A model generated the notes under the pieces. It was not told the origin of the DNA and did not search any database. It saw only the letters and a program-made list of their open reading frames with translations. Source: Tribonema minus (Eukaryota; Sar; Xanthophyceae; Tribonematales; Tribonemataceae). From it: a stretch of 64,000 bases of DNA. The stretch covers positions 1,240,001 to 1,304,000 of the forward strand of contig JAFCMP010000002.1 of assembly GCA_017506865.1 (NCBI GenBank), in the 5' to 3' direction. The first letter of the stretch is position 1. Each line of letters starts with the position of its first letter. The position numbers were made by a program, and so were the translations under genes. Of the stretch, positions 38,569-59,293 are shown piece after piece.

Positions 38569-40185
38569 ATGGCACAGCAAGAGGAGGTGTCGAGGTTTAC
38601 TTGCGACGCGGCAAGCGAGGTGGCTATGCGAGTCTATTTCCGCCGCTTTGCCCAGAAGCAGCCCAACGCTTTGAAGACAGCAATGCAGCAATTAAACGAG
38701 GCTAAAGCGACCATATGGCACACGCCATGGCATCTCAATGCCTTGCGAGAAGAGATAGAATGCCGCAGTCAGCTCATAGAAGCCTTACGCCCTTTTGAGG
38801 CGCCTACGCAGGAGGAGCTGGAGTGCCGGCGAGCAGGTACACTATGCTGCCATGAGCGCGCTCTACAGTAGGTCATGTACACTCACGCTTCAACGATGAC
38901 GGCGGAGACAAGTGTCAAGCGCGCTCGGCTGGCTTGCCGTCCTGATACAGGACATACTTCAGGTCATCTGCCCATGACATTACGTGACATGTTCACAACG
39001 TGCTCCATCACTTGATTATGCGTGCGTGAGTCAAGTCGGATACTGACGGCCTGCATTTGTCGTGGATGACACAATGCCATATGCAGGCTGGTGCGGCATG
39101 ATGGCACTCAGGCTTACTCAGTTTTAGGAACAATTCAGGTAGAAATGAGCACAGGGTGGACTGCACCGTGTGACAGAACGGCGACTGCCGCAACTGCCAG
39201 CAAACTTGTGCTGTGCTCTTCCGTCCACCCAATTACATCAACAATCGCGCTGTGTTTCCTCAAAGTTTGCCTTGCCGTTTCACAACAATATTGCTGCATT
39301 ATTTGCCGCCATTCTTGCCACCATGCTGGCAGAAGCCTTGCAGGTGAGTTAATGAATGACTTCGAGTCGTCTCAACCTTTGTTTTCGACTGTTTTTCTCT
39401 GAATTTTGCTTTTCATGCACATGCTTGCTGTTCTCTCTTCCTGTCTGCGCGCAGGCATTCCTGTTCAAGAGCTCCTGTACCGCAAGGTTCCATGTGTGGA
39501 CTGTAGGAAGTTGCACCTTGGCATTGTTGACAGCCCCCTGCTGCCAGTGTTTGAGGCACAATAGTTCATTGTCACGCTACTCGCGGCCCGAGGCGCCAAG
39601 ACATGGGCACAGGCCGTTAATCTGACCGTGCATTCACCCGCTTTTCAAGGCGTACCGGACTGGCTGACGACTCGTACGCTCAGGACCATCGAGCTCATCA
39701 AGGCTGAGGATGCGAGATGTGAGTTGGAATCGAATTTTGTCGCCAGATTGAATTTACTGTCATGCCGTAGCACCTTGTGGCAAACCATGGGGGTGACAAC
39801 GGTTGTAGAGTTGCTGATGCATCTATTGTTTATCATTGTCAAGTAGCCCCCCACCTGTTGAGTCAGATGACACACCAATCCAGTGAGTAGGGGTCAGACT
39901 TCACCTTTACATTTTACAGCTGCGCATCCGCGATCAGCGCAGATTGCTGTCTTGTCTTGCTGTACTTTCCGCCTTGGTATGCTCTCATCATGCTGTGGCT
40001 GTTAACTATGATTACTTTTTGCTGTCGCTCCTTTTGCTGTCATCCTTGCAGCGGCGCTATCGTGGCCAGACAGGGTTGCGGACCGCGCCGAGGAGTGGGC
40101 AAAAAGCATCACTGGACTCCTCTCTGCTCCTGTACAATTAGTCAACGACACTCGGCCATCAGAAGCACGCCGCAAAGTTGCGTAA
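38569..40185 (+). pseudogene. Three-exon gene of unknown function, copy 1 (nonsense in exon 2)
   Basis: Exons 38569-38836, 39455-39718 and 40052-40185 have exactly the same lengths (268, 264, 134 nt) and phases as the intact copy at 59.4-61.9 kb. Exon 2 contains TAG at 39562-39564 where copy 2 has CAG (after PLLPVFEAQ), so the protein would stop about halfway. All else is well kept: MAQQEEVSRF start, VPCVDCRKLHLGIVDSP, WLTTRTLRTIEL and the SEARRKVA end. It is either a recent pseudogene or a site of readthrough or stop reassignment. I do not recognise the family. A TGTAA motif lies at 40245-40249. Confidence 0.6.
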
Positions 40186-41197
40186 CCCCAGAGGCTTATT
40201 GTAGCACTACAGTGGGAAAGCACCGCGGGCTCACTGCCAATGTATGTAATGTACATGAGGGTTGAAGTTAGTATGCCGCTCACGCTCAGATCCGATCACG
40301 CATCAGCGACAGAGGGATGCGATTATAGCTTGAGAGCACGCTACAAGGCCAACATGCAGCCAGTTGAGTCTGCCCACACAATGTGTTGCGTTGCCCCCAC
40401 TCTGTACAATTTGGTGTGCCTCCCAGTCTCATAAACAATTCACACATCAGTGACAAAAGGTAGCAGCAGTTGACCGCTCCTGTTTGTGGAATGCCAATGC
40501 AGCCTCCACCTTCTTAATGCCCTTAGGTTCTTGGTGTGCGTCTGTGCGCTGTCGCACGGGAAGTGCATGCACTTAGGTGCATGCATTGCTGACACCACTT
40601 TATGCCTTCTCTGTATGGGCTTGCATGCACTGGCGGCTGAATTCTGTCAAGTAGCATATCAGGTGGCTCAGAGTGGGTACAGTTGTGTCTGACCTTTATT
40701 AGTCTAGTACATGTTGCAAGCCTCGGCAATGCCACATATCCCTACTTGTAATTTTAATTTTTGGGGGCCAACGTACGACATTTGTGCCAAATGTCAGCAA
40801 CAACCGTGCTTTGGCGAGCAAATGACCTGTCAACCAGGGGTCCCACGCAGTGTAACATGGTCCGGAGGCGTAAGCTAGGTGCAGCATTAGCCAACAAGAT
40901 GCTAAGCAATGCAATACTGCAATGGCTTTCACAGCTGCTGTCCTGCATCACACAAGTCTGTGACGCACAAGCAAGCACACTGCAATCACCCATGCGTGCG
41001 TGCGCCTGTAAATGTGTGCATGCGCGGTTTTGCAGTGCGCATAAGAAGAACAAGCGCCAGGGAATTCAGCGTCAGGTAATGATTGTAATCAGTGTCATGT
41101 CAGGAGAACTGTGGCAAATATAGGGTGCGATGACAGTCACCCAATCCCGCACCTCATCAGTGCCTGCATACATTGCACACCTGTCTGGATTCCAAGG
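40186..41197. other. Tail of duplicated segment and spacer
   Basis: Similarity to the second copy continues past the stop codon to about 40550 (compare 61943-62310). Beyond that I see only unsupported short frames. Confidence 0.5.
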
Positions 41198-41900
41198 TCA
41201 CTTGTGCACCAGCAACCACTGCAGTGACTCTAGATGACCGCCCTCACGCGCATGCTGGGTGACAAGAGGGTGCCAAGGGCAATTGGTGGCATAAGCGACC
41301 TCAAGCACATTTAAGTAACCCCTGCCAGTGCGAGCGGCTTCCATGGAAGCCATCATACCGCAAGGACAATTATGCTGACGAGTCCATTCTAGCACTCGTG
41401 CATGACCGTTGATGCACACAAACAGATATCTCAGTCTAGGGACGACCATTGGTATGAAGCCATTGCAGGGTGTGCAAGTGCCCACTCTTGGCCGCAAATC
41501 CCCACAACCTTCATGTCCCACTCGCAGTGGTGAAAATGAGCCCACATGAGAACCTCGGCGTGGTTGCCTGTAGCGGCGCAGCAGAGCAGACTCTCCTGTC
41601 CCATGGACACCCGTTGGCCCGGGCCCATTGAAGGATCATGATGAGCAGATGGCCCTTTGCAGCTGCACATGTGGATGTGTAACTGTCCCACGTGCACCCG
41701 TTAGCGCATGCCCGCTGCAACATCTCGAGGTCACCGCGTGCTGCAGCGCTGCTGCAAGTAGCGCCGTTGCCTGGCATGGAGCCACTGCAGCACTTGTAGA
41801 TGACCGTTGGCGGCGGCCTGATTGCACGCACCGGGGGCCCATGGGCACTCATGAGCAAGGGCTAGTTGTAGCGCCTGTAGATGGCCACCTTGTCAAACTC
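41198..41900 (-). pseudogene. Decayed ankyrin-type repeat gene
   Basis: Several frames carry pieces of the repeat GHLxxLQWxxAxxCPWDxxxCxxAA: for example ECPWAPGACNQAAANGHLQ, ANGCTWDSYTSTCAAAKGH, WARANGCPWD, TNCPWHPLV and EGGHLESLQWL before the stop at 41198. This CPWD-type ankyrin-like repeat is common in large algal and giant-virus families. At least three frameshifts or stops separate the pieces, so it is not functional as one protein. It lies just downstream of a duplicated copy of the giant gene's promoter and first codons. Confidence 0.7.
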
Positions 41901-42132: not shown

Positions 42133-42148
42133 TGGATACACAGGTGGA
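42133..42148 (+). repeat. Left terminal inverted repeat
   Basis: GGATACACAGGTGGAC, the inverted counterpart of 59278-59293 with one base inserted. Confidence 0.65.
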
Positions 42149-42159
42149 CAGCCGGGGAC

Positions 42160-42760
42160 GTCAGTGGAGAAAGCCTGTGATGTCCTGGCATCATGTGATG
42201 TTCCTGGAGAGTCATATGTGCTGCGTGGGGGTATGTTGTGAGACATCTTGAAAAAGCAACATGTAGGAATGAGAGCGCTGACCAAAGCGTAGCAATCGGC
42301 CGGCAATGCTAATACTGACTGGCCAATCAATATTGTCAAAGGTGTCTGTCCCGGCTGCCGAGATGTGACTGTGCCTGTTCTGCGTTGTTCATCATGGGAA
42401 CATGGGCTTCACACGATGTTACTATGATCTGGATGCTGGTACCATGACCTCATCACGAGATGCTCTGCCGACTCATCGTGAGCGCGGCAGCGCTGTTACA
42501 TCACAAGACCTGCCCATGCCCAATGCAACATCATCATGGCACGTCATGAGATGCTGGTAGGCACTGTAACCACATGCGACGCATGCCGTGTCCATGATCT
42601 GCACGCAAATGATGTGCATGCCAGTACTTGACATCACATGTCTTGCAGCGCACCCCTTGAACCCCATCATGCGATGCCTGGCGCCCATTGCCACATGATA
42701 AGATGCCCTCAATGTCAAGACGTCAGTGTCAATGATGTGTCAGCATGTGCTTGACGGCAT
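42160..42760. repeat. Left subterminal CATGATGT-rich region
   Basis: Many copies in both orientations of an ATGATGT/ACATCAT motif, in CATG-rich context (for example GGCATCATGTGATG, AACATCATCATGGCACG, CCCCATCATGCGATGCC). No gene. The same motif class fills the inner side of the right end. Confidence 0.6.
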
Positions 42761-43172
42761 ACGACAGGCAAAACGTGCCCCACACGATGATCAACGATGC
42801 TTTGTATTGCAGTGCATGCACCATCTTGAGATATACACCCAGCAGACGGGGGCAGCAGCACTCTGCGGTGGGAACCTGGCACTTGGAGCACCGGTGTACG
42901 TGAATGGCATATGCCTGTGCACATGTGCAGTATATAAATAGTATACTCCTGACAACCAACGTTGGTGCGAACATTAAATGGCTACGTGTCATGGTGCATC
43001 ATGATTTGCAGTGTACATCGTGCAGGGTCTTTCAGTGATCACGTGTATATACAAAGGCAGGGCGCCTGCTGTGACGAGCATGCTGATGCACATGCCATTG
43101 TGCAGACGCACATTACCAAATGTGCGAAATCGTGTATATGCCCAGTGGCCATGGGCACTTGAAGCATGTCTA

Positions 43173-44814
43173 TCAGCCAAAGCCATCAATGCAGATCTGC
43201 AGGTCCACCCTGTGCGACAGGTCGGGCCATGCGCTGCTGTCGGGGGAAAGGAGGTACCACAGCTGCTTCTGAGAGAGGGACACGCTGCCGCTCCTGTAGA
43301 TCTGCCTTAGGCGCCACTTGACAGTGTCAGGCGCTCGCAAGCTCAGATACGAAAACTGCAGAGCCGGGCGACAAGAACATGCAGGCGAAGTCAGAGCTGC
43401 TAGGAAGTAAGGTCAGGGTTCAAGAACTTGAGACTGTGATGAGACCGCAATAGGAATTTGCAAGTTTGCACATCAGAAAATAACCAAGTCAAAATGCTGC
43501 AGCGTGCTTGAGTGAACTTCAAGCTCCATGTGTGGCCATTAGTATATGGATGTGCATGAGCGTGAGGGTACAGCATTCTGCATCACACGCAGCAGCGTCA
43601 GCAGTTGCAGAGTGCAGACCCTTGCAGGCCCCTAGGATGGGGCGCCTGAGGCAATACCAGCCTACGCCGCTGAAGCACTGCAAAATACAGGTACCATGAT
43701 CCCGCAAACTGCATGTGCAGCATCGTATAAGAACTGCTGCTCAAAAAGTGGCCATCAAAGGTTTACTTGTCATTCATGACTGGGTGAGCATGCGCGGCAA
43801 ATTAGCTGTCAATTGCGCTCGACAAGTCAACACAACGGTAGCACATAAAATGTCAGAACATGAGGCGTCATTGCGCACGCACTCACCGCCTCTGTACTCT
43901 AAGTGACTTTCCAATAGATGTTTGCCAAGGAACTTCGACGAAAATGCATTCTTTGACAAAGTATGAAGCAAGTGCATACGAAGTACATGCGCTTCAAGCA
44001 TGTGGCCCTCTCACCTTCAGCATGTACACGCTTTTCCAGCCCAGCTTGCACCAGTCGAGGGGGGTCATCATGTCTGAGCGCAAGCCAAACTGCGGCAACG
44101 CGTGCAAGGCACCAGTGAGCATGACCGGTGAGGCTGCAAGCTGTGGGGATGTAGGTGGTGGGTCGGCCATAGTAGGTATGGCGAAATGCCGCATGCTGAG
44201 CGGCAAGTAGGTAGTGCGTCAGGTATGGCTGACACGGTAGGTTTCGGAACTCCGCAAGCTATGAGCATGTAGGTAGTGGGGCTAGGACAGTAAATGTACA
44301 TAAGGTGCTCGCGCGCTGGTGCGCCTGGCAGTGCCGCAGCAGGGGCATGCCATTAAAACAACACCAAACATGCATTTGACGTACCTAACGCGCTCGTATG
44401 CACATGGTATTTGTTAGAATTACAAAAAAAAAAACCTTCTCAAGAGCTCTAGATGGGGGCTAAAGAGCTCTAGATGGGGGCTGTTTATTAGAATTACAAG
44501 AAAAGCACCCCTCAGAGCGAGCGACCCGGAAAGACGCAGCCTTTTTTGTAAGTTGCGCTTAAAGCGGAGACATCCGCCATAACTGAACAAAGCGTGATCA
44601 CGCACCTCAACTTGCCTTCATCTGAACATGTACGTGCTGTTGACGTTAAATGCATGCTGCAGAAATTAAATTTCATGCTGTGAAAGTACATCTGCCCTTC
44701 ACCACTACACTTTGCTGTCACCCTGCCAAATACATTATCAACACCACGCTCAGCGATGTGAGCACCGAGACCCAACTTTTGCCGCAATTTTAAAGCCGTT
44801 ACGCACAACTTCAC
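43173..44814 (-). CDS. Unrecognised gene inside the insertion (3 exons seen)
   Basis: Three protein-like segments join in phase: 44814-44616 (VKLCVTALKLRQKLGLGAH..., ending at a GC donor GAAG|GCAAGT), 44133-44015 (...DMMTPLDWCKLGWKSVYMLK) and 43355-43173 (FSYLSLRAPDTVKWRLRQI... to a TGA). Splice sites are CAGCAG|G, GCTTGCAG|CC and TCTGCAG|TT. Composition is ordinary and mixed, unlike the alanine-rich giant gene. Upstream exons are missing from this model; a hydrophobic open segment just upstream (44.82-44.88 kb) may belong. I do not recognise a family. It may be an element-encoded or captured host gene. Confidence 0.4.
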
Positions 44815-45076
44815 CTGCTGAGTACAAGAAATAATTGACTATAGCTATGAGAGCGCCGCAGGCCACAAAGCGTGTCTGCAGGCTTAAGATTGTAGTATAA
44901 TACTGCGACGTGGGTGCTCGTGGTGTGCGTGCGCCACACCGTGCGACAGCAGGCGCGTGCTTTTTTGGACTTTGAAGTACGTGTCTTGATGCAAATAATA
45001 GACGTCCTACTTTGCAGCACGCAAAAAAAAAATCACGCATATTTACGGTCAAAGTTGATGTCAGCAGGGTACTCAC

Positions 45077-45201
45077 GTCAAGGCCGCGTTGCGCTTGGTC
45101 GCCTCGCCGCGCGCATGCAACGCACCACACAAGGCCCTGGCTGATGATGGTGATGTTGAACTTGACGGTAAGTTGGCCAGGGGGTCGCCAACGCCATCAT
45201 C
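45077..45201 (-). CDS. Isolated exon-like segment
   Basis: A 125-nt open stretch (DDGVGDPLANLPSSSTSP... ending ATKRNAALT) between a strong acceptor (CCCCCCTCGCAG) and a GTGAGT donor. It ends in phase 2, so it does not join directly to the exon at 44814. It may be an upstream exon of that gene with one exon missing, or a separate remnant. Confidence 0.3.
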
Positions 45202-45588
45202 CTGCGAGGGGGGCCGGGGGGGTGGGGCATTGGCACCAAAGCTGAAGTATTGCAAAAAACACATCTGACTGGCACGTGATGTTTGCATTACTCCAACCAA
45301 GAATTGATATTGCAACCACCTTCCCTGCAGCATGCTGAAATAATGCCTCATCAAATACCTCTACTTAGTGAGCACATGCCTCTTCTGGCAACCATGTTTT
45401 GAATGATTAAAAACTATAAGTGCGGCATTTTATATAAATAAGACACATTTAGGTCATTATGATTCTGGAATACACAGCCTCAGTTGTATTGACTTTGATG
45501 TAAACAGTACGTATGGACTTGTATTTGTAAAGGCCCAAGGGAGGCCGGGTTGCCTATGCAATCGAAAAGCTTGCGTCAACGCAGCAGC

Positions 45589-48500
45589 CTAGTCTGCGCT
45601 GTGCCCTAGGAGTTTGGATACCGGCGCCGCAACGCAGCCCAGCATTCGCGCTCCACGTGTGTATGCCATGACGCGCTCCGCCAACTCCCGCGCCAGCGAT
45701 ATGCTCAGCTCAATGTGGATCTGACGCTTAGCTAACCCGGCCTTGCGTAACACATCTGCCTTCCTCCCCCCTGAGCACAGTGCTGAGTGCATTGCCAACT
45801 CCTTAACAAAAAGGCTTGTCTGCTTGCCCAGCTGTCCGTACGACTCCTGCACGAATGGCACAAAAGCCCAAGATGACGTCAAGGTGCCGGTGTGGTGCTT
45901 GACCTTCGCGTCCTCCCCCACCCCAGCAGCATAGCCGTCCGTGTTCGAGGCATTTGTTTTGCCTGTCAGGTACGAGCTCGCTGTGGGCGCGCGCACACTT
46001 GTGTCTAGCACTATTCCCTTGTTACGGTATGCACTGCTAAAGTGCAGACACCCTGGGTCAATGACTGTGTCCGCCCGATACCCCGGTACCTTGAAGACGC
46101 TAGCGTCCTCATTGCGGACAATAGAGACATGGTGCTGTCTCAAGATGCGCTGTAGGCACCGCTTTTGGGCAGTGTGTGTCGCGTTGTGCCCCCGTATGTG
46201 CTGGCTGGGGCAGCTGATCGCATGCGTGGAGGTGGGGCTCACGTCACTGCACCGCCATGGGCACACCTCGCCCCACCCGTCTAGAAAGATCGCAACCAAA
46301 ATCATCGTGGCTGCTGCCATACTGGACATGGGCGCCGCACCCGGGCGGTCATTGGCAGCGGGCGGCACGCTCATCCACGCCATTGCCCCGGACGCACGCT
46401 GGCTGCGCAGCTGCGCCAGGACCCGCGCGCTAGCCTGTTGGCGGCGGCGGCTGGTGTCACGCGAGTCACCAATAAGTGTAGCCTGCGTCGGCTTGCCCAC
46501 GGCACCAGCCGAGGCAGCCTCTAGGTCCTCCACCAGGCAGTCCTCGTATTGACGTCGAAGAACATTTGAAAGGCCGGCTTGTAGTCCGTGCGTGAAGTGA
46601 CCGCGCCGGCGGCGGGGCACTACCTTCCTGCAGATCTCGTCAGCATAGGCCTCCCAGTCGTCGTCGTCATCCTCCTGCCCGCCGCTGCAGCTGCTTTCTT
46701 CCGCGCTAGTTTGTGTTTTAGCGGGCGTGGAAGAGGCAGCCGCGGCAGCGGCTTGAGGGCCAGGTACGGTCGCCGCCGCAGCGGCCGCCTTGGCGCCAGG
46801 CACAATGCCGTGGGTGTGTGGGGCTGGCTCAGTGGTCCCCGTCTCCGTGACGGCAGTTGCGGCGTAGATTGCTTGCACCGCAGTGGGGAGCGTCGACGCT
46901 GCGGCCGTCGTATCTGCTGCCCACCGTAGCAACGATGCTGGGAGCTGCTCGGCCACAGCTGTGCGTGATTTTTCGCCGCCATCAGCTGTCAGCGCTCGCG
47001 TAGAGCGTCGCACGGCCTCGATGATTGGCGGCAGTCCCTGGTCCTCGCGTATTGCGCATGAGTGCTGCGCGAACCAGGTGACTGCGCCGTGTTCGTCAGT
47101 GCCGAGCCTCAGGGCCGCTGCTGCCACAGTGGCATGTTTTATTGCAGGCCGCAGTGTTGTGCGTGCCTGGGCCGTGTATGCGGCTGGTGCCAGTAGCCCC
47201 AAAAGCGGCATGCCCAGACCGCCTCGTCGCTCCGGCAACCGTGACGCCCGCAGTGGCACTGCGATGTCCGTGAGTTCTGGCGGGCCCAAGCGCGGCAATA
47301 CCAGCACGCTGCCACTGCTGGCTTCCTCATTGTCACCAGCAGTGCAGGCGGCCAGCAGGTGTGACTTCATGACTGCCGCGGTAGCGCAGCCGTGCAGGTG
47401 CAGCATGCGTTCAAGCGTCCATGCACAGAACCCATCAAATGCGTGCAGCCATGTCTCACTCAAAGCCGTGTCAACGACCCGAGCTAAGAAGCCCATGCGC
47501 TTCGTCAGTGACCTGCGCAGAATGAACTGTGCTGCCTGTAGGTGATGCCGCGCCATTCCAGCTAGCTGCCACGACAATCGCCATGTCCCTGCGTCAACAA
47601 GATGCTTGCTCATGGCAGCATGCACATAGGCTGGGTGCCCTACCGGTACCCCGACCGACGTAAAGCCCTGACTGGATTCTGGCATGGTGGCGTCCACAAA
47701 CGGTATGTCAAGGGCGCGCAGGCGTGCTCTGGCCGCTTCATCAAACACTGTGCCGCGCATGGCGATGGCCAGCGACTTGTCTGGTCGAACGCGTAGGCCC
47801 CCTGCCGCAAGCCGACGGATCACCTCTGCCACCCCAGCGGCCGCTGCATCGTCGAAGTAGGCAGCTTGCAGCACGTTGAGGTCATCCAGGAAAGCGCAGT
47901 GCGGGGCTGGTGGTTCCGCTGTGCTGTGGCCGTAGGCCGGCATACTGCCGGGCGTCGCATTCACTCCATCAGGGTAGAAGAGTAGGAAGGCCGCTGCCAC
48001 TGCAAAGTACAGCGGCCCTAGAGGGTCCCCTTGCTGGCACCCTAGGTGGGAGCAGATAATGCGAGCTTCACCGTTCACCTCCACTCGCATCTCTGGCGCA
48101 GTGTCACCACAGTATACGGACTCAAAGTGCGGGAGCAGCTCCGGACAGAAGAGCATAAGTCCCCGCACAATGGCGGCGCGATCCACACTGTTAAATGCGT
48201 TCTCACAGTCCAGCTGGATTGTGGTGCCATACAGCTCGTGCCACACGCGCGCGCGCGCTGCCACATGCTCGACGCCAGACCGGTATCCTACGCCAAACTG
48301 CGACATGGAGGCCAGCAGCCCCGATATTTTGCCCTTGACACTCCGTGCCGCTGTGGACCCGAGGAGTCTGCGCCAGACACTGGAGCAGGCGATCGGACGC
48401 CGCTTCTGTCCTATGCCTGAGAGGGCCGCGGCGCGGAGAAGCCGTTGCGATTGCTCCGGCAGCAGTTCGGGCTCAACAAGCAGCGTCGTGAACACCTTGG

Positions 48501-50799
48501 CCAGGTGATGGGCGAATGCCGGTTCCATCACATCTGATTCTGAATCACCAGCTAGTCCTGGCGAGGCACTGCTCACGGGGCGGGTGGCTGCTTTCACTGG
48601 TGCACCAGGCCCAGCGGCCATCAAGAGGTGTTCATAGCGTAGGCCGTCCAGCCCTCCTGCCTTCCCCGCCCCTGCTGCGGACAAGGTCGACAGTATGTCT
48701 GCCGCCTCGAGGCGCCGTCCGGCTGCGCTGGCAGCATCCTCAGGCCTATCGCTGTGATCATGTGCCTGACCCGATTCGAAGACAGGACTGTCGCTGCCAG
48801 CTGGCCCGGTGGTCGTTGCCACCCCTGCGCTGTGTAAGCAGTGCCGCCGGGCGTCGCGTACCAGGCCGCGCACTTGCTCCATTGGCGTATCGACTACCCC
48901 CGGCCGGGTGCCAGTTTCAGGGTGCTTTGCTGCCAGCACCTGTGCCGTGACCTCGTCTGCTGGGGCGCATGCTTCACGCGCCTCTAGTCGTGCGGCAGCC
49001 AAGCCTACCCCCCGTCGCTTGCCTGAGAGGGCAGCGCATGCTGTTTGCTGCCTGGAGTCAGCCTCCGTCCAGTCGGCATCGAAGTTCGTTTGTGCCGACG
49101 CCATAGCTGCGTTGTTTGGTTTGGGGGCCCGCAGCGCCGCTGCTGCTGACAGCGTCTTTCTCAGTAGCTCCGCGAAGTCGCCAGACAGCAACGCTGCCAG
49201 CCGGGCCGCAGGCGGCATACCGGTTCCCTCCGGTTGCCTACCAAAGGCCATCGCTGCTAGCAGGTGCAGCAGCCTGTAGCCGCGCTGCACTAGAGTCTGA
49301 GAAACCTGATGAGCAAACGCCCCGGCACCATGGTGGAGGCGCACCCGTGCCGCCTCACGTGCACTGTCTGTGGCGTCCGCCAGTAGTCGTGTGGCGTGCT
49401 CCACTAGCCGTGCCCACTGGGTGCACTGCAGCTGAGTGCGGAAGGGGTTGGCAATGGTGGTGAACCGTAGCAGCAGTAGATCCGCCTCATTGGTCTGGTC
49501 AAGTGCGTAGACCGAGGGCGTCGAGAGGTCCCAAGCCAGGGATGCTCGTGCCTGGGGCTTTGAGGGCCTGCCACTGGTGGTGGTGGTCGGGGGGGGCGGT
49601 GACGCGGCATCGTCCGGCGGGTCCAAGTCCATGTCCGCCCATCCCACGGCCGTCCCGTGGGTGGGGCTGCTGTCCTGCAGCCTTAGGCTGTTAGACTGAG
49701 TGCGGCTGCCGGCGCTGCCAGGCGGTGCCGCAGCAGCTGCCGTTCGGCGCCGGCGTTGCGCGCCGGCTGCCGTGGCCGCCGGGCGTTTCTTGCTGGACTT
49801 TGAGTTGGCAGCGCCACTAGCCGGCACCGCCGGTGGCTTTGGAGGTACCGCTGCGGCAGCCCCCGCCGCCGCGGCCGCGCCGTCGCTACCCGCACCCCCG
49901 CCCTCGGACTGGCCCGGGGGTACTGCCGGGCGTGCGCGCGTGGGGGCGCTTCCATTCCGTCGACACGTGTGGCATGGCGAGGTCAGCGCGCATTGCCTCT
50001 GCCCCGCGCTGGCTGACATATGGACCAGACCGCAGGCACCTGTGCATGCACTCAGCTTCCTTACCGCCCGTAGGAAGTCTTCTGCCGTGCAACCATACAT
50101 GGTGCTCATCTCCTGCACACGCTTGGCATGGTGTGCCCCAGTGTTGCAGGTACTGCTGCCTGAAGGGGCACGGTCACCGGATGGGTCGTGATCAACCTGC
50201 TGCCGGATGCCCTTGGCGTATGCTGCCGCGGGATTTTGCTGACAGTGTGATGTGCTCGCCTCAGGGTTCAGCATCGACCTCGTGCAGCTACCACCGTTGA
50301 AGTGGGCCACTACCGGTGCCATGCGGCTCGCAGCTGACACTTTGCCTCGCTGTTTGCTGTCCTCTTTCTGACCAAGCTGCCAAAATGCCAGTGTGCATAG
50401 TGGACACCTCAGTGGCTCAGGCTGCTGTGGCAACTGCAGCGCAGTACGGGGCTGTGTCCGACTCGGAGCCGTGATGTGGGTGCTGTCAGCTTGAGTGGTC
50501 GCCGACGCTGTCACAGTGGTTGGCAAGGGCGGAGCTGCCGCAGGGGCGACAAGCAGTTTAAAGTGTCCCACATTTGTATATAGCCCAGGCGGCGTCCACA
50601 GCACATCCAGATGGCAGTCAGGCTGAGCTGGAGTTGCCGGTGCGAATACCGCTGGCAGCCCCATCAGTTGTGCCAGCACCAGCCCTGTTGATTTTTGCGT
50701 GCTGCCAGTGGCCTGAGGCTCGGCCTGCCACACCGTCACCGAGACCGCGAGACCGCTGCAACAATGGCCCACACAGACAAACCGAGGGGCCGTCCCCAC
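45589..50799 (-). CDS. Intact R2-like non-LTR retrotransposon ORF (RT plus restriction-like endonuclease)
   Basis: A 1,736-residue open frame. N-terminal part: a CPLC...H...C cluster (residues ~132-172), a further Cys/His-rich stretch (CTGACGLVH, CHTC), then Ala/Pro/Gly-rich sequence with a basic KSSKKRPAAT. Reverse transcriptase (~690-1060): KRRPIACSSVWRR, motif A with QLDCENAFNSVDR, QQGDPLGPLYFA, and catalytic FLDDLN. C-terminal part: a CCHC-type zinc knuckle (CPWRC...H...C, ~1515), HIRGHN, then a PD-(D/E)xK-like core (YRADTVIDPG, KGIVLDTSVRAP, ~1575-1605). This order is that of restriction-like-endonuclease elements (R2/NeSL/HERO group), which insert by target-primed reverse transcription. 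No APE endonuclease or RNase H is seen. All key motifs are present, so it may be active. The true start may lie downstream of 50799. Confidence 0.9.
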   Translation of the reverse strand: MGTAPRFVCVGHCCSGLAVSVTVWQAEPQATGSTQKSTGLVLAQLMGLPAVFAPATPAQPDCHLDVLWTPPGLYTNVGHFKLLVAPAAAPPLPTTVTASATTQADSTHITAPSRTQPRTALQLPQQPEPLRCPLCTLAFWQLGQKEDSKQRGKVSAASRMAPVVAHFNGGSCTRSMLNPEASTSHCQQNPAAAYAKGIRQQVDHDPSGDRAPSGSSTCNTGAHHAKRVQEMSTMYGCTAEDFLRAVRKLSACTGACGLVHMSASAGQRQCALTSPCHTCRRNGSAPTRARPAVPPGQSEGGGAGSDGAAAAAGAAAAVPPKPPAVPASGAANSKSSKKRPAATAAGAQRRRRTAAAAAPPGSAGSRTQSNSLRLQDSSPTHGTAVGWADMDLDPPDDAASPPPPTTTTSGRPSKPQARASLAWDLSTPSVYALDQTNEADLLLLRFTTIANPFRTQLQCTQWARLVEHATRLLADATDSAREAARVRLHHGAGAFAHQVSQTLVQRGYRLLHLLAAMAFGRQPEGTGMPPAARLAALLSGDFAELLRKTLSAAAALRAPKPNNAAMASAQTNFDADWTEADSRQQTACAALSGKRRGVGLAAARLEAREACAPADEVTAQVLAAKHPETGTRPGVVDTPMEQVRGLVRDARRHCLHSAGVATTTGPAGSDSPVFESGQAHDHSDRPEDAASAAGRRLEAADILSTLSAAGAGKAGGLDGLRYEHLLMAAGPGAPVKAATRPVSSASPGLAGDSESDVMEPAFAHHLAKVFTTLLVEPELLPEQSQRLLRAAALSGIGQKRRPIACSSVWRRLLGSTAARSVKGKISGLLASMSQFGVGYRSGVEHVAARARVWHELYGTTIQLDCENAFNSVDRAAIVRGLMLFCPELLPHFESVYCGDTAPEMRVEVNGEARIICSHLGCQQGDPLGPLYFAVAAAFLLFYPDGVNATPGSMPAYGHSTAEPPAPHCAFLDDLNVLQAAYFDDAAAAGVAEVIRRLAAGGLRVRPDKSLAIAMRGTVFDEAARARLRALDIPFVDATMPESSQGFTSVGVPVGHPAYVHAAMSKHLVDAGTWRLSWQLAGMARHHLQAAQFILRRSLTKRMGFLARVVDTALSETWLHAFDGFCAWTLERMLHLHGCATAAVMKSHLLAACTAGDNEEASSGSVLVLPRLGPPELTDIAVPLRASRLPERRGGLGMPLLGLLAPAAYTAQARTTLRPAIKHATVAAAALRLGTDEHGAVTWFAQHSCAIREDQGLPPIIEAVRRSTRALTADGGEKSRTAVAEQLPASLLRWAADTTAAASTLPTAVQAIYAATAVTETGTTEPAPHTHGIVPGAKAAAAAATVPGPQAAAAAASSTPAKTQTSAEESSCSGGQEDDDDDWEAYADEICRKVVPRRRRGHFTHGLQAGLSNVLRRQYEDCLVEDLEAASAGAVGKPTQATLIGDSRDTSRRRQQASARVLAQLRSQRASGAMAWMSVPPAANDRPGAAPMSSMAAATMILVAIFLDGWGEVCPWRCSDVSPTSTHAISCPSQHIRGHNATHTAQKRCLQRILRQHHVSIVRNEDASVFKVPGYRADTVIDPGCLHFSSAYRNKGIVLDTSVRAPTASSYLTGKTNASNTDGYAAGVGEDAKVKHHTGTLTSSWAFVPFVQESYGQLGKQTSLFVKELAMHSALCSGGRKADVLRKAGLAKRQIHIELSISLARELAERVMAYTRGARMLGCVAAPVSKLLGHSAD

Positions 50800-50879
50800 A
50801 CGCCCTCTTCCTGTAAACAGTACCCCCCCTTTTTTGGACCACCTTTTGAAAATATTTCAAGAACCGTCCGTTTGGATTA

Positions 50880-51130
50880 CCTTTCGAACGGCAGTTTGAC
50901 TATATTATAATTGATGACAAAGTCGGTTGTAATGCTCAGTGCCTTGAATATTCAAAATTGTTTTATTATTAATTTCAGTTTTGAAAATTACATGTTTTTG
51001 GTACTTTTTTGATATGAGTTTTTTCCACGGGTTTGCAAAAATAAAAACCAAATTGGCAAATATTTCCAAGTCTATAATTAATAAAAGCATAATAAAGAGA
51101 AATATATATAACTTACTTTGAAGGAAATCA
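50880..51130. other. AT-rich block upstream of the retrotransposon ORF
   Basis: About 250 bp of A/T-rich DNA (poly-T runs, ATATATATAAC) immediately 5' of the retrotransposon frame. It could be the element's 5' UTR/promoter or the flank into which it inserted. No gene. Confidence 0.5.
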
Positions 51131-53799
51131 ATTGAACATTGAAGACGTCTTCACAACTACACACCAATCTCACACGTGCACCAACATCAACCCTAACACG
51201 TGCACCAACCTCAACCCTTTTGTCTGCTTGAAGAATAAGAGTTAGGCATGTAAATGCGACCTTCATGACTCCTCCAAAATGCTCGCTCCTCGCATACAGT
51301 TTTCACCCAGTGCCAAGGTTAACTGCCTAGAAGTGTGGCTGCTTCTGCAACGGATGTGGACGTGCTCAGTCTCCACTGTGACGCGATTGTGTCCCATCTC
51401 AGGCATTGCGCGTGCCATCTAATTACTGCGCACAGATACACAACTTCTCCTCAACTTGAAGGTCTGGGGGATCACCGGTATACAACCACACCGTAACAGT
51501 ATCTGAAGTGGTTGGCACCAGCGTTTTGCGCACCTTGAGCCTCTGCTGCGTCTGCACAAGCACACTTTTCCCACTAGCAGCTCATGACGCCGGGCGCCGG
51601 CTCAAACGTACATAATGGTCCTCTGCACACAGGGGCATACAGGTAACAGTAGCAGCGGAGCAATGCCGTGGTTGGGCTCATGGGCACAGACGATCGCACA
51701 GCGGTCAGGAGGCAACGTCGCTCTCAGATGCACCATTATTCTTGTGCTTTCTTTCAATGTTTTAACTTAAAAGCTGCAAGTATTCATAAAGCATACCACT
51801 ATGTCTTGAGCTACGACTTTACGGCGTGTCGTGCAGGCTCAGGCTGTTGTGCGAAACAATAGGTCCATCAGCACGTACAGTACGCTGCAGTTGCACACAA
51901 CAGCATTCGTGTACACCATGCAGGCACGTTGTGCATAGAAAACCATACTTCCAAGTATGTCGGAAGTATGCACTTCGTGTACAAGGTAGCCCTCAGCAAA
52001 GTCGCGTACACTAGCAGCTTGCGCCATGCAAACCGAAGCGCACCATCTTCTCAGGCATATACACCATTACCACACAGTGTGAAATTGCAAGACGCAGTTG
52101 GTGTACAAACTGAAGCGCACCATCTCTGCAGACATGTATCCATCTTGTATACACAGCTTGTGACTGCAAGAGGAAGTTGGTCACATCAAGTCCCAGCCAA
52201 TGCACACAAACTTCACGATCACCTGCAAGATATTGGGTAGGCAGTAGTGGCGGGCGTTGCCGACGAGCACTGCCGTTGCCCCTATCAAGAGCAGCCCGGT
52301 ATCTGCGCGCAACGTTGCCCGCCTGCACGATGCAGCAATGCGCACTTGAGTCAGCGCTCCGCGTTAACTAAAGGCACGTGCATGCACCTCACGATCTGCT
52401 GGCAATTGTGCATTATGAAGTAGCAGTGCAAACTTGGTACAAACGCGCTTGCACACAATTGAGGTGGGCAGAAACGCTGTTGCGACTGGTGATGCTACAA
52501 CACTATTTGCAGGCATATTGCATTGCAAACATCGCTATTGTGTGGCTCAGAATTGCGCCTGGCAAGCACGATGCGGCGGTTGGCACGTTACAATGAGCAG
52601 AACGGAGGCAGATCAGCGTAAGTCAAATATGTGACAATACTGCACCGAGAGCCAAGGTGTGTGAAAAGTTCAACGCCTCACAACTCGAGGTACATACATA
52701 CATACCTTCGGGCTGTGCCGCTGTGAGCCCTCTGCACGGCGGGCCTTCACGCGCGACGTGCCATGTTTTCGCAACAGCGTAGGCAGTGCTTGTCGCGTAC
52801 TCACTTGTCCAGCAGTATGTATGCATCACAGCGACGGCTTCATGGTGATGACCTCTGCGCCGCGCACCTCACAAACTTAATGTGTCCGCACTGTGCCGTG
52901 CACCTCTAAAAATTCAACTGCGACTTGCCATACGCACCAGCGTGCCATGGCTGTGAATTTGCGCGCTGCGTCACGCGCATCACGTACAACACTTCAAGTG
53001 TGACGCGCCGCTCAGCTGCAGCAGCGCTCCGAGGCAGTGACACCTCCCCTGCCCTGCGTCACGCGCACGCACGTATCTTACAGTTGCAATGCACCCGTGA
53101 CGCGCGTGCGCAGCCTCAGCGGCGCAGCAGCTCTCCGCGGTCGTGGCGCTGCCCGCGCCGGCGTCCCGTGGTTCTTAGGATTAGCCCCTGCGTCCTCAGC
53201 GCGAGCAATGGCGAGGACTACAACAGGGGGGTGTGGGGGGGCTGCGGGGAGGGGGGGGGGAGGAGGGGGGCCCCGGCGGCGGAGGAGGCGAAGTACGGCG
53301 GCGGCGAGGGGTTAGAGCGCGCAGTTTAGGTGCGCGCGCTGCGGGGTGAGTGTCCCGCCCCGCCTCTTTTTTCTTGCGAGTTTGCGGTTACGGAAGCGGG
53401 GGGGGGGGGGGGTTGCTCAATGCAGGGGGGGTGCTTTTCCAAGGCGTGCAGGTTGCGGCGGGGGAGGGGTTGAGGGGCACAAGGTTGAGCGGTGCGGCCG
53501 CTCGCACAGAGCAAGTGCTAGGGCTGGTCATTATGCATCGTGAACCATCGCGCGGCGGTGATTCCGTGAGGTGTACAGAACGGACTCAGGCGTTTCCTGG
53601 AGCCTAGGGTCAGGGGGCTGGCAGACTTTGACAGATACCACGCACGCAGCCCAGCTTCAACTTCGCTACAGTGGCGTCTGGCTCACCTTAGTGCCACAGT
53701 GCTCATTCTCATATTGCGACGCCCCCCCGCGCAGACTTGTCTTATGTGCCCCCCCCCCCACACACACACACCGTGCCCCTGACATTGTACTGGCACCAG
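51131..53799. other. Middle of the insertion without a supported gene
   Basis: Only short frames. A two-copy tandem repeat of about 82 bp lies at 52024-52180 (GAAGCGCACCATCT and TTGTATACA/TTGGTGTAC motifs). An acceptor-like CTTACAG at about 53088 is followed by an open GC-rich stretch to 53328 that could be a 5' exon of the + strand gene downstream, but two frames are open and I cannot choose. G-runs occur at 53.24-53.27 and 53.40 kb. Confidence 0.4.
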
Positions 53800-55881
53800 G
53801 TGTGGAGCCATGCTGCGTGCGTGTACGGGCGAACGGTGTCGTTGCCCGCGCCGGTGCTGTGTCCTGCGCGTTCCGGGGTGAGTCAACACTTGAAGTAGGG
53901 TTCACTGCTTGAAGTTGAGCCCGTGTCGCAGCTGGTGATCATGTGTGTAAAGTATCTGTGAACACTCGCAGGTGAGCGTTGATACATGACCAGTTGCCAG
54001 GAAGGTGAGCAGTGGCCTGCAGCTTGCGCAGATGGAGGTAACTGCAAATTACAGCGCGCATGCATAGACCTCACATGGACAATTGGAACTTGGTCAGTGA
54101 CTTCAATCCACCACTTGAACTTGGGTACAGGACGAGCGCGCGCACATGCACCATGAGCCCGGCCACTTCTCAATTTGCAACCTGACATTACATGTACAGC
54201 TGAACTTGGTAAACAACCATCAGCTCAACAATTGAACTTGCACCAGGGCGACGCGGCGAGCGTTCGCGCACTCGCAGCCCGCGCGCATGGGCCTGGCCAT
54301 TGGTTCACAATGGTATCTTTCATTCGAAAACCTCGACTTCTTTTTGAGAAAATCAGTAACTTCAACTCAACACTTTTGCAGGTGCATCGGACTGTGGCAG
54401 CGTCGACCACCAACTTCAACGCAACTGCCGAACTCGCCCATGACTTCAACTCACCGCTTGAACTTGCATCAGGACGGCGCGGCGAGCGACGCCTTGCCGT
54501 CGCAAGGAGGTGTGCAGGTGGTGGGCGGGCCCCACACAGTGCTCACTGCGGTGATCATGCAGGTGAGGGGGTTTTCCAGGAATTGGTACCGTAGTTTCGC
54601 ATTTACAATTGGCCATACCACGCTCAATATCTGGCATACTTTGCCACTGAAGGCAAGAAACAGCCGGGCTGCAAGGCTGGGGCTTCATCATTCAGTGCAA
54701 TTGATGGGCGCGCTCTATGCGGCGCTCGTGGCTTAGCAGGCTTACGCGTGCGCGTGCAGTAGTGGGAGTGATTCGCACCACGCCTGTTGAGGCGTAATGT
54801 GCATGTTGAGCCGTGTTGCACATGACGAGCCGCGCTGCGCATGTTGAGACGTGCTATGCATGTTGAGTGCCGCAAGTATACAGATCTGACACCGGAAATA
54901 GCAGAATACGGAGGTTCGGGCCACGTGTTGTCCGGCCGGTCCCCTGGTTCTTCTTTGGGGACTTCTTGTGCTGCCCTAGCCACCTACCTGAATGCACAAC
55001 TCATTGCCTACCCTTTCTTCGTTTTCCAACGCTCTCCGTGCACTGCAGATAGAGGAGAGATTTGTGCTGCTGCACCACCGCGGTGGCAGGCGGTGCAGGG
55101 AGAATGAGGTATGTGTGTGTCACCAGGGTTAGGCTTAGGGTTATGTGTCCGTACGGTAGGATAGGCATTGCTAGCGTCTGCCGCCCACGTTCATGCTAGT
55201 TTCTCGCTCTACAGCTACTGGCTGTGTTGCCCTCAGTTGGCTTCCTTGCCGCCAGAGATATGTAACGGCTGGCCACACCTGCTTACAGTCTTGCTGAGCA
55301 CTGGTGCCCAAAAAAGGGCGTCTCTCCGTCACTTGTCTAGAAACGCCAACCTTCGCCGTTGTTAATTCCCTCACCACTGCACGTGCATAAGCTACAGCTG
55401 TCATGGTATTGCCGTCAGTGTGAGTACTGTGTATACTTCCACATGAATCAACCCGCCTGCAGTGCCACTGCCACACTGCAAGAGGAAGGGTGGCAGGTGA
55501 GGTGCACTGCTGAGGCGTGCTGCTGAGCAGTGCTGGTGTGCTTCAAAATCTCCTGCTCTTTCACTGGTGGCGAGCATCGGCAGCTGGTGTGGTAGGCAAA
55601 TTCTGGGTTGGTTCTCGAAGCAGATTACGCAAGGGTGCATGATGTTGCCAAGGCTGTAACGAGAAACGAGGCAACGTTCAAATTCTTTGGTCGGGGTTGT
55701 TAGTTGGTTGGTAGATGTAGGGATAGGATTAGGGTTAGGGACGGGATTAGGGTTAGGGTTAGGGTTACAGGTAGCCCCAGGGTTAGCAGTGGTTATTGTA
55801 TGGCCCCACAACCTGACCGTCGCCGTTTTCTGCACCTACTCGTCCTGCTCCCAACAATTTTGGGTGCCCCGTGAAGTGTGA
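53800..55881 (+). CDS. Unrecognised multi-exon gene inside the insertion
   Basis: Five exons, all phase 0: 53800-53877 (VWSHAACVYGRTVSLP...), 54473-54562 (DGAASDALPSQGG...VIMQ), 55049-55108 (IEERFVLLHHRGGRRC...), 55419-55496 (CEYCVYFHMNQPACS...) and 55771-55881 (VAPGLAVVIVWPHN... to TGA). All have AG acceptors and GT donors (GTGAGT, GTGAGG, GTATGT, GTGAGG). The 138 codons seen are the 3' part; earlier exons are unclear. A CEYC...C cluster might bind metal. The start of exon 2 has a tandem copy at about 54225-54300, the same kind of junction duplication as in the giant gene. Family unknown; it could be element cargo. Confidence 0.45.
55720..55768 (+). repeat. Interstitial TTAGGG tract
   Basis: GGATTAGGGTTAGGG-type repeats run straight into the TTACAG acceptor of the last exon of the + strand gene. 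It is the longest telomere-like run on this strand. Confidence 0.8.
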
Positions 55882-56264
55882 TCCGTTTCCTATCACAAAT
55901 AAGTTTGCACTATTTTATTTTGTCCAAACATCAAGTAGCATGTAGCACCGGTTGTACATGCATGCATGCTTGCAAATAATGCCTGTGGTCAGTATTTATG
56001 GATGCTCCTGTGTCAAGAACTACGTTGTTCATTGTGTGGTACCTGGTCTCGTTCTCATTGTGGTGTTCACTTGCACGCAAAAAACAAGGACGGACACATG
56101 CACTGGTGCGTGTTGGACCTGGACAGATGCATTGGCGCGCCTCAGACTACGATGGACAAAGAGAGCAGCGCGTCCCAGACAGCATGTGCAGAACATGCTT
56201 GCAGGCAAGTGGCCGCTGCGGTTCATATGCAGGGTACATGATGGCACAACTGTTGTTGATATGT

Positions 56265-57060
56265 CATCACGTCTGTCACTCTACGGCTGCAAGCCACAGC
56301 TATGCCCATTTTCAAGCGCCATTACGTTTAACTTCAACATCAAGTTGACTTCAAATGAACCAAGCCTCACGCAGCGCCCTGCCGCTGTGATAACGTTGGT
56401 CACTTTACAGCTGTAAGCCACAGGGCATAATGGCCGTCTTCCAACGCAGTTATGTTCAACTTCGTCATCAACTCGACTTCAATGTTTTCTTACCTCACAT
56501 TACATGTTGAATGTGGGTATGAGTGTGGTGAATGAGGTTGGCGTCGCGCTCAGCGCTCTCTCGGTGTGATCACGTCGGTCACTCTACAGCTGCAAGCCAC
56601 GGCTATGGCCATGTTCAAGCGCGGTTACATTTAACTTCAAAACTAAATCGCTTTCAAATGACTTTTAAGCTCACATTACACTTTTAACGCAGTATGAGCG
56701 TGGTGAATGAGGTTAGCAGTCGTACTTAGCGCCTCGCGCTGTAACCAAGGTCATCGTTGTACCGCTAGTACGTCACACGGCATAATGGTTGTCTTCCAAC
56801 GCAGTCGAGTTTAACTTCAACACCAAGTCGACCTAATTGTTCCTTACCTCGCATTACATGTTGAATGAGGGTGTGAGTGTGGTGAACGAAGTTAGCAGCC
56901 GCACTCAGCGCCCTCGCGCTGTAATCACGTCTGTCGCTGTACCGATAGTAAGCAACACGGCATGATGCCCGTCTTCAAACACAGTCGCGTTCAACTTCAA
57001 CGCCAAGTTGACTTCAAATGTTTCCCGACTTTCATGTTGAACGCGGCATGAGTGTGGTTA
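56265..57060 (+). repeat. ~175-bp tandem repeat, about five units
   Basis: Units start near 56265, 56391, 56570, 56743 and 56923. They share TCACGTCNGTCACTCTACAG, GCAAGCCAC, GTTTAACTTCAAC, ATCAAGTTGACTTCAA and GAGTGTGGTGAATGAGGTT. The first unit overlaps weak open frames at 55.95-56.4 kb. Confidence 0.8.
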
Positions 57061-58292
57061 GACATCACACGCTACGGCAGCTTCTCTGCCGATAGCAGTT
57101 CAAGCAGTCTGTGAACAAGGATGTACACCGAGCACATGTTGATGTTGAGGTAGTTCAAAGCGCAACTGGATGTCTGGTGTCATTTTGTACTGCAGAGCAG
57201 GAATAACCGGGCAATTACGTACCTGCTTTCTTTGACGTGGTTCGGTATCATTACTTCATTCACATTGCTGGCTTAATGTGCTAATTTTGCCGAGCACTGC
57301 CTGCAGGTAGCACACGCCCCCATTCTATCGGTTTGTTCATTTGAAGGATATGCGCACACTATTGAGTGCATATGATGCCGTCTAATGCTAAAGTTGTACA
57401 TTTGTGCGCAGCTCAACTCTGAAATCGAAAGCTCTCCTACTCGCGTTTTTGTCAAACTGCAACTGAGCAAGAGTCAGACTGCAACTGAGCACTGAGGCCA
57501 ACAGCAGAAGCATAATTACCCTACTTTGTGGGGAAACACATGCAGTGTAGTGTGACTGCTAATAACTCATGCACAGGCATCAGATGCAGCCAGTGCGAAA
57601 CTCCCATCAGTTAAATAATTGGAGGATAACATATGACAGCCGCAGCTCTTTGCTTTTCTTGCACTTCTGGTAGCCTTTCGCTTTCTTCGAAGCTGGCCTC
57701 TTGAGAAGTTGTTTTGGACCAACAGTGTGCGTGCTGCCATCTCACATGTACAGGGTCAGGTGCACAGCGTCTCAGTGCATTGCATCATCACAGGCAGCAA
57801 GTGGTAGAGTGTTTGGTACACCATCTGACCACCCCCCTGCCCCCCTTGCCCACCCAATCGTATCTGCAATGCTTCCTGCAGAACAGCAGCCGTAGTTCAA
57901 CAACAGCGCGAGCCCCGGCAATTGAAGCTGCTACCTACATGTGAAGCTGCTGCCTACATGTGAATCGCTGATCGCTGACAAGAGTGCTGATAGCACACAT
58001 CAAGGTGAAGGGCAATGAAACACAGGCGTGATAAAATATGATGCTTGATGTACATACATTCGTAGGCATGCGTACGCGCCCATGCACGCACGTACATGTC
58101 TGGGCAAGGGGGGGGGGGGGGGGGGGGGGGGCTTCCGCTTTGTGTTTTGGCAGCCTCACCAGATATTAGCAGTGTGGCCATCGGTGCCGTTGCGAACTCT
58201 GCACCCAGGACCATGGCAAAGCCAACAGCAGTTGCATTGCCACGCCGCGCACTCGACGCGACACGCACCATGTGTGTTTTCACCTGATGCTG
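57061..58292. other. Spacer in the insertion, with a G24 tract
   Basis: No supported gene. It contains a run of 24 G at 58108-58131. Confidence 0.5.
58108..58131 (+). repeat. G24 homopolymer
   Basis: The longest homopolymer in the window: 24 consecutive G. It could form G-quadruplexes and is a likely assembly-length artefact site. Confidence 0.9.
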
Positions 58293-58494
58293 CTACATGC
58301 TCAACAAGTCAGTTGCGTAGACGCATGATTCAAGCAAGGCATCACTAGGAGCATGTATTGAGGAGTGACCTTGTCTGTGCTTCCGCTTGGCCTTGCCACA
58401 TGCATGCGCATGCCACAGCACCAGTTTAGTCCTCGCTGTCTGCTCATCATAATAGCGTGCGCACTGCCACTCTGCTGATTCCTTGTTGTCCAGG
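58293..58494 (-). CDS. Possible terminal exon (weak)
   Basis: From an ATATGCAG acceptor an open stretch reads LDNKESAEWQCARYYDEQ... to a stop at 58293, about 66 codons of mixed composition. No partner exon was found and no family recognised. Confidence 0.2.
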
Positions 58495-58974
58495 CTGCAT
58501 ATGGTCGGGTCGTGCATGTCACAAGGAGAGAGGCCAGCCGTGTGCATGCATGGGGGCAAGGACGATCGTGGCACGCGGCGCGTTGGGGTTGGGGTCCAAG
58601 GCGAGGACGGGCGTACGATCATGGCAATGGGAGGGAAATTTGGTGGTCCGGGGGGTTGCGGGGGAGTGGGGGGGGGTGGCATGAGCAGGCAGGCAGAGAA
58701 CGCAGCGGCTGTTGAGAGCAGCAAGTGTGGTACATGGCTGGCGACAATGCATATGTTGATCATGCAAGCCCTATGTGTGGTGTGTCGTGTTGCATTACAT
58801 GGTGAACGCACATGCATCTCATACACTCGTATGATGTTGTCATGCTGCCTTAAGCTGTATGGTGTGGCCTGCAAAGGCACATCATACGGTCTCGCTCTTG
58901 CCCGCTTCGTGTGTTGGCTGCCACCACCTGGACAATCATGTGATTTTGTTTCATAACGCTTGCGCGATGTTGCT

Positions 58975-59277
58975 TGCTTGAGGCACCTCATGTGACTTTA
59001 AGTTAGGGGCCACCGCATGATGTCTGCTAGCAAAGGAGATCACATGACCACTATCAGCAGCACATCAGTGATTTTGTGCTGTGGTGCAGTGGCACATCTT
59101 GTGATGTGAGCTGAGGATGACTTGGCACAACACACGATGTCAGTATGATGCGTTACATCTATGATGCCTCAAGATCGAAAGTCGCGATGTTCCTGTTTCA
59201 CGATATGACTCTAAGGCCATGATGTCCAAGACGTTCCATGCACCTGACATCTTGTGGTATCATATGGGGCCCCAACA
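58975..59277. repeat. Right subterminal CATGATGT-rich region
   Basis: Repeated GCATGATGTC, ACATCTTGTGATG, ACACGATGTCAGTATGATG and GGCCATGATGTCC motifs, matching the class at the left end. Confidence 0.6.
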
Positions 59278-59293
59278 GGTCCACCTGTGTACC
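59278..59293 (-). repeat. Right terminal inverted repeat
   Basis: GGTCCACCTGTGTACC, complement of the left terminus apart from one indel. Duplicated host sequence resumes at AAAAGTTCC (59294). Confidence 0.65.

Follow-up and report, generated by a model that had tools for sequence, protein, structure and literature searches.

Pack-CACTA and other Pack-TYPE transposons of Arabidopsis, rice, and maize are described, in the portions of PMC8903248 and PMC13317346 available to us, as elements with terminal inverted repeats and target duplications that enclose a fragment of a host gene and in which a transposase is not found. For Pack-CACTA, a proposed mechanism covered in the available portion of the review PMC13317346 has gene capture result from neighboring insertions and aberrant excision. 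Elements of the CMCT clade have CA..TG ends and target duplications of 2 to 5 bp according to the available text of PMC12730594, which also describes fungal DNA transposons in which a TET/JBP gene accompanies the transposase and is regarded as helpful to the element. Subterminal repeats belong to the layout of plant CACTA elements in the accessible part of PMC8978399. Here we describe an insertion of 17,151 bp at positions 42139 to 59289 of the window, by which we mean the whole 64,000-nucleotide stretch of DNA that was analyzed (C2:1240001-1304000, on one of the 554 contigs, 158 Mb in all, of the genome that was searched). This insertion is a real but decayed DNA transposon, into which a retrotransposon resembling a long interspersed nuclear element (LINE) later inserted. 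We put the probability at about 0.75 that it belongs to a nonautonomous, CACTA-like and Pack-TYPE-like family and carries an old, transduplicated fragment of a host gene.

The element shares with the Pack-TYPE transposons its terminal inverted repeats, its target duplications, the host gene fragment inside, and the failure to find a transposase, and like them it probably moved in trans. It differs from them in its 2-bp duplications and CACAG ends and in the presence of a multiexon fragment with introns at all six loci that have a recognizable left end. Presumably it is also large for an element of this kind. Unlike the land plants of the Pack-TYPE papers, the host does not appear to be a land plant, and we take it not to belong to the flowering plants, the subject of the cited work. 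The likeness to the CMCT clade lies in the CAC..GTG ends, in a 2-bp duplication that falls within the 2 to 5 bp given in the available text of PMC12730594, and in subterminal repeats such as those of plant CACTA elements (PMC8978399, likewise in part); the differences are that a transposase was not found in the element and that its ends are unlike those of a Plavaka-type family in the same genome. As in the fungal TET/JBP transposons of PMC12730594, insofar as that text is available, a host-derived enzyme gene is the cargo of a DNA transposon, but the cargo of the present element is a decayed fragment. No description of the family was found in the open-licence PubMed Central literature on CACTA/EnSpm elements in Chlamydomonas and green algae, on Pack-TYPE elements, or on gene capture, and no paper on Pack-TYPE elements in Chlorophyta was found there. 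The kind of element, a gene-carrying Pack-TYPE-like transposon, is already known, and the present element is a large example of it.

The boundaries were set by the points at which homology with other loci stops (left, 42139; right, 59289), together with the inverted ends. An 11-bp terminal inverted repeat, CACAGGTGGAC, lies at 42139 to 42149 on the plus strand and at 59279 to 59289 on the minus strand; these are the only two exact matches in the window, and both read inwards. With one mismatch allowed there are three matches against 1.57 expected, a number reached in 23 of 100 shuffles. The count alone is therefore unremarkable; what is remarkable is the position and inverted order of the repeats at both homology breakpoints. 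Directly outside them stands a 2-bp target duplication, TA, at 42137 to 42138 and 59290 to 59291. The first-pass annotation had placed the split between 42132 and 59294, which was right within 6 bp, and had read inverted repeats at the ends; the repeats exist, but the extra GGATA and GGTA that it included consist of flanking DNA and the TA duplication, as the homology shared with the other copies begins at CACAGG.

A related site without the element is preserved about 4 kb away. When the joined flanks (left to 42138, right from 59290) were compared with window positions 37001 to 41400, they aligned across the junction with an uninterrupted copy at 38183 to 38422 (76% identity over 250 aligned columns) and further to the right at 86% over 287 columns and 71% over 226 columns. 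Removal of the element and one TA yields a site that aligns with this copy near 38.36 kb except for a 6-bp indel beside the junction. The similarity of 71 to 86% marks the uninterrupted copy as an old paralogous duplicate; it is thus a paralogous empty site and not an allelic one. The earlier claim of two related copies of one region, the first of them continuous, was borne out. A near-perfect palindrome, cttcatgttgacgcgccgtacggcgcgtcaacatgaag, was noticed by eye in the uninterrupted copy at about 38489 to 38527 and was not seen by eye in the interrupted one.

Both inner ends are rich in GATGT/ACATC, as had been proposed. There are 9 occurrences in the left 500 bp (42139 to 42638) and 12 in the right 500 bp (58790 to 59289), compared with an interior background of about 1.05 in the same length; 1 of 1000 and 0 of 1000 shuffles, respectively, reached these counts. 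The excess is also present at most of the other copies' ends that were examined and is absent from the right end of the C525 copy.

Other copies were sought with a 20-mer from the right end and a pattern from the left end, with reversed or control patterns alongside. The right-end 20-mer has 10 matches at up to 1 mismatch, the window included, and 35 at up to 3; its reversed control has 15, so the weak right-end matches are largely chance. The left-end pattern has 6 matches at up to 2 mismatches and 11 at up to 3, against 2 for the control. Both ends in the right orientation occur on four contigs: C2 (17.2 kb), C223 (14.1 kb), C525 (16.7 kb), and C212 (59.4 kb). A second locus with the same paired ends, the absence of which was to have counted against an insertion, is thus present three times over. 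The flanking dinucleotides agree in three of the four pairs (TA on C2, GC/GC on C525, and TA/TA on C212); for one given pair, agreement by chance has a probability of about 1 in 16. The remaining loci have one recognizable end each. Near relatives of the window copy are found on C162, with 95 to 96% identity at the left end, and on C12, with 97% over the last 500 bp and 87% over the last 2 kb. The ends, the TA duplication, the motifs, the empty site, and the paired ends elsewhere all confirm the insertion that the first-pass annotation had read as a very large DNA transposon carrying cargo. Divergent left ends were also seen on C544 and C513. Upstream of a right element end on C290, a frame (C290:797000-797986; L032:1-987) has a weak match to the telomere resolvase ResT/TelK catalytic domain (E 3.6e-4, below the cutoff), and a tyrosine-recombinase transposon is possible at this place.

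The cargo matches two apparent host genes, one on contig C113 (minus strand) and one on C73. Five short blocks, 80 to 89% identical, are common to the two, with no match reported between the blocks, and GT-AG borders, judged by eye, fit exons in C113. These exons mark the host as a eukaryote, presumably a green alga. The window element matches the five C113 exon blocks in the same order on the minus strand, from 52391 to 43207. These blocks are exon A (52198 to 52391; C2:1292198-1292391), corresponding to AGNLNAAI...DARHYLLPNFLQ in C113; exon B (51528 to 51705; C2:1291528-1291705), corresponding to VQTPQRF; exon C (45136 to 45204; C2:1285136-1285204); exon D (44019 to 44216; C2:1284019-1284216), corresponding to ED...GWKS.Y; and exon E (43207 to 43363; C2:1283207-1283363), corresponding to APDT...Q..RW. 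Host gene sequence between transposon ends, a feature of Pack-TYPE elements, is thus present as five colinear exon blocks. The presence of intron regions along with the exon regions makes it probable that the gene was taken up as DNA. The gene is matched at all six left-end loci (up to 2 mismatches) and at 5 of the 10 right-end loci, namely, C2, C12, C212, C525, and the copy at 276 kb on C223.

Family-2 glycosyltransferases have the ordered motifs K-A-G-N-L-N, V-Q-T-P-Q-x-F, E-D, and Q-x-x-R-W. These ordered motifs are present in the C113 exons, which read AGNLNAAI..VNDARHYLLPNFLQ, then ..VCFVQTPQRFK, a glycine-rich exon, ..IEDMVTSLELFKLGWKSAYVLEPDE, and ..APDTVQWRLRQIYRW.., an order that we take to be that of the processive enzymes of this family. 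Single exons were also aligned, with 1000 shuffles each, to two intact frames from this genome with a match to the Pfam domain Glyco_trans_2_3 (L047 and L049, from the 5 of 15 genome-wide matches that were fetched). Both frames keep the order of exons B, D, and E; the score was reached by 1, 7, and 20 of 1000 shuffles for L049 and, for B and E, by 5 and 6 for L047. Exon A shares KAGNL with both frames, not significantly. At C346:325751-325822 there is a further relative of exon C; a Glyco_trans_2_3 match below the threshold (C346:324088-324237; E 1.79) is 1.5 kb away and has the same gene orientation. The 15 genome-wide Glyco_trans_2_3 matches include neither C113 nor C73. The cargo is a decayed, intron-containing copy of a host gene that, from its colinear motifs, looks like a family-2 glycosyltransferase, an enzyme that would make a sugar polymer. 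The proposal of cargo thus stands for host-derived DNA, which is a decayed gene copy and not a set of intact passenger genes. The conserved minus-strand gene had been considered as a transposase and was rejected once its motifs proved to be glycosyltransferase-like. A profile from four glycosyltransferase loci was set aside, as the longest frame in L048 and in L050 is apparently not the right one, and scans for codon periodicity along the window element and the C223 copy were mostly weak or inconsistent and were not used as coding evidence.

The ratio of nonsynonymous to synonymous substitution rates (dN/dS) was calculated over matching codons for pairs with at least 60 shared codons, stop codons excluded (63 to 123 codons per set). 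It is 0.11 between C113 and C73 (116 codons, pooled exons A to C). Six pairs of element copies gave 0.51, 0.56, 0.70, 0.71, 0.77, and 0.80, and 10 host-element pairs gave 0.28 to 0.74 (0.40 to 0.74 with C113 and 0.28 to 0.36 with C73). Stops, frame shifts, and indels occur in the exons of the element copies. This pattern fits a constrained host gene and element copies under weak or no constraint.

The window copy has changed since. A LINE-like retrotransposon of 5.3 kb occupies 45511 to 50814 on the minus strand, flanked by a 9-bp target duplication, AAACAGTAC, at 45502 to 45510 and 50815 to 50823; the LINE is missing at that place in the C162, C525, and C12 copies. Its 1736-aa frame (45589 to 50799), the longest open frame of the 17-kb element, matches Pfam RVT_1 (E 5.1e-7), and the protein end presumably represents a restriction-like endonuclease domain, which it resembles. 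Since the reverse transcriptase sits in a LINE with its own duplication and is absent there from three other copies, it was rejected as the transposon's own gene. The longest open frame of such an element may, as a caution, stem from a later nested retrotransposon. The LINE family is repeated elsewhere: an 834-bp stretch (L053:1-834, next to a Plavaka-type locus on C124), 96% identical to window positions 48899 to 49738, has matches of 97 to 98% at at least 37 places (40 of 450 candidates scored). The originally proposed size of 17.2 kb is accurate for the insertion but is partly secondary, being inflated by the LINE; without the LINE and one 9-bp duplication, about 11.8 kb are left. At 52715 to 52720 lies a junction where the C223, C525, C12, C142, and C162 copies carry extra core DNA that is absent from the window copy. 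The difference is most simply read as a loss of this core segment by the window copy. Long frames in relatives were likewise rejected as the family's own genes: in C223 a Copia-type polyprotein accounts for the long frame, and C525:28402-31217 (L025) is a nested hAT element with a Dimer_Tnp_hAT domain, TAGGGTTGGCAA ends, and an 8-bp duplication, CTCCTCTG.

These observations are consistent with the following history. A transposase made elsewhere would recognize the 11-bp terminal repeats and the subterminal GATGT/ACATC motifs, and the element would be excised and pasted into a target of 2 bp, TA in this case. Probably an ancestral element took up, at the DNA level, a fragment of several exons, introns included, from a host gene resembling a family-2 glycosyltransferase. 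The fragment was carried as minus-strand cargo, and its copies are now under little constraint. The window copy later received the LINE and probably lost the core segment kept in others.

Several results weigh against this reading. The element's own transposase was not found in the window copy, which is without the core and the right half of which (52745 to 57300) gave no assignment, or in the tested frames from relatives. The hAT domain in C525 belongs to the nested element with its own 8-bp duplication and is not the transposase of the family. The left terminus of the Plavaka-type (CMCT) family on C124, C13, and C233 is CATCGGGAAA, not CACAGG, and this family is therefore not an evident helper. 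The C223 copy has no matching duplication (CT/TG), and its left end is mutated. At 5 of the 10 right-end loci (up to 1 mismatch), on C53, C516, C207, and C290 and at a second locus on C223, the captured gene has no match; the right end is thus joined to other interiors as well. For the glycosyltransferase call, the score of exon D in L047 is reached by 284 of 1000 shuffles and that of exon C by 572 and 351 in the L047/L049 tests, and exon A scores well in L047 (4 of 1000) but away from the motif and reaches 108 of 1000 in L049. Pfam searches with the short exons singly gave no match over the curated cutoff (the best was exon D, Glyco_trans_2_3, E 0.2), and PDB searches with exon A, exon E, a four-row alignment of exon A, and the reverse transcriptase frame gave no glycosyltransferase and nothing useful. 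The dN/dS sets are small; the calculation took the best alignment per exon up to E 1, and a few weak ones (E 0.04 to 0.75) may raise dN.

Since the searches yielded no transposase belonging to the element, its superfamily is unproven, and it is possible, though improbable, that the element belongs to another superfamily (Mutator-like element [MULE]-like, mariner-like, or undescribed) and is CACTA-like only at its ends. The ends do read CACAG, not CACTA. Classic plant CACTA duplications are 3 bp long, compared with 2 bp here. The 5-nt duplications of rice and maize CACTA elements, as given in the accessible part of PMC8903248, do not match either. The CMCT clade, in contrast, is described in the available text of PMC12730594 with CA..TG ends and 2- to 5-bp duplications, and the family has CA(C)..(G)TG ends, 2-bp duplications at three of four end pairs, and subterminal repeats within a few hundred bp. 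Target duplications of MULEs are about 9 bp long, not 2 bp, and that of Tc1/mariner elements is TA, yet the C525 copy has GC/GC. The first-pass annotation had recognized no transposase, in agreement with the present searches, and had tentatively pointed to CACTA/MULE-like and giant cargo elements; the 2-bp duplications and CAC..GTG ends favor a CACTA-like over a MULE-like assignment, which stays tentative. A genome-wide search with Pfam Transposase_21 gave no match and is uninformative because none of 14 control genomes matched either. The search for a transposase partner gave one KDZ match below the cutoff and five places over the cutoff for Plavaka. Plavaka-type copies at C124:895740 onwards (L053), C13:800321-806081, and C233:10466-16229 are 99 to 100% identical over at least 5.76 kb, suggesting that this family was probably active recently.

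A further alternative, which we consider doubtful, is that the glycosyltransferase-like gene is not a passive fragment but standing cargo that once served the transposon, as TET/JBP dioxygenase genes presumably do in fungal DNA transposons. The gene is common to all six left-end loci and has therefore been carried through several transpositions, and the host-element dN/dS values of 0.40 to 0.74 (C113) and 0.28 to 0.36 (C73) could be taken as constraint, although they may partly mirror constraint on the host side only. Against this stand the values of 0.51 to 0.80 between element copies and the lesions in their exons. In addition, when the left part of the element was searched against the whole genome, no C113 match was found in window positions 42139 to 43206, the last kilobase before the left end, with C113 fetched up to exon E; the carried gene thus appears to be cut off after exon E. 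We favor the reading as a passive captured fragment. By comparison with the host relatives, the locus shows that a large CACTA-like transposon can keep part of a host gene, introns included, through several rounds of transposition.

The C212 locus raises another reading. Its element ends (C212:236741-296131) are separated by 59.4 kb and each flanked by TA. The family core of about 4 to 5 kb would account for a small part of that length, and C212 could therefore be a giant of the family, loaded with cargo, and not a host for nested transposons; the family would then be a CMCT-related lineage, as yet undescribed, with very large composite elements. This locus was read in stretches on either side of C212:241201-290999 (49.8 kb between them), and as far as read it enters the core segment from both sides. 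We regard such a lineage as a long shot. Very improbable, too, is an assembly artifact or a segmental duplication without transposition, for which the duplication of the flanking host region within 4 kb could be cited but which is opposed by the exact inverted ends, the target duplications at three of four pairs, and the other loci with different flanks.

The element contains a few further features. A degenerate tandem array with a period of 180 lies at 56363 to 57024. A short degenerate TAGGGT array at 55718 to 55767 matches repeats with which contig C423 begins (C423:46-601) and may be telomere-like. Window positions 53019 to 55260 resemble C127:174126-177351 in short conserved pieces and are possibly a second captured host segment.

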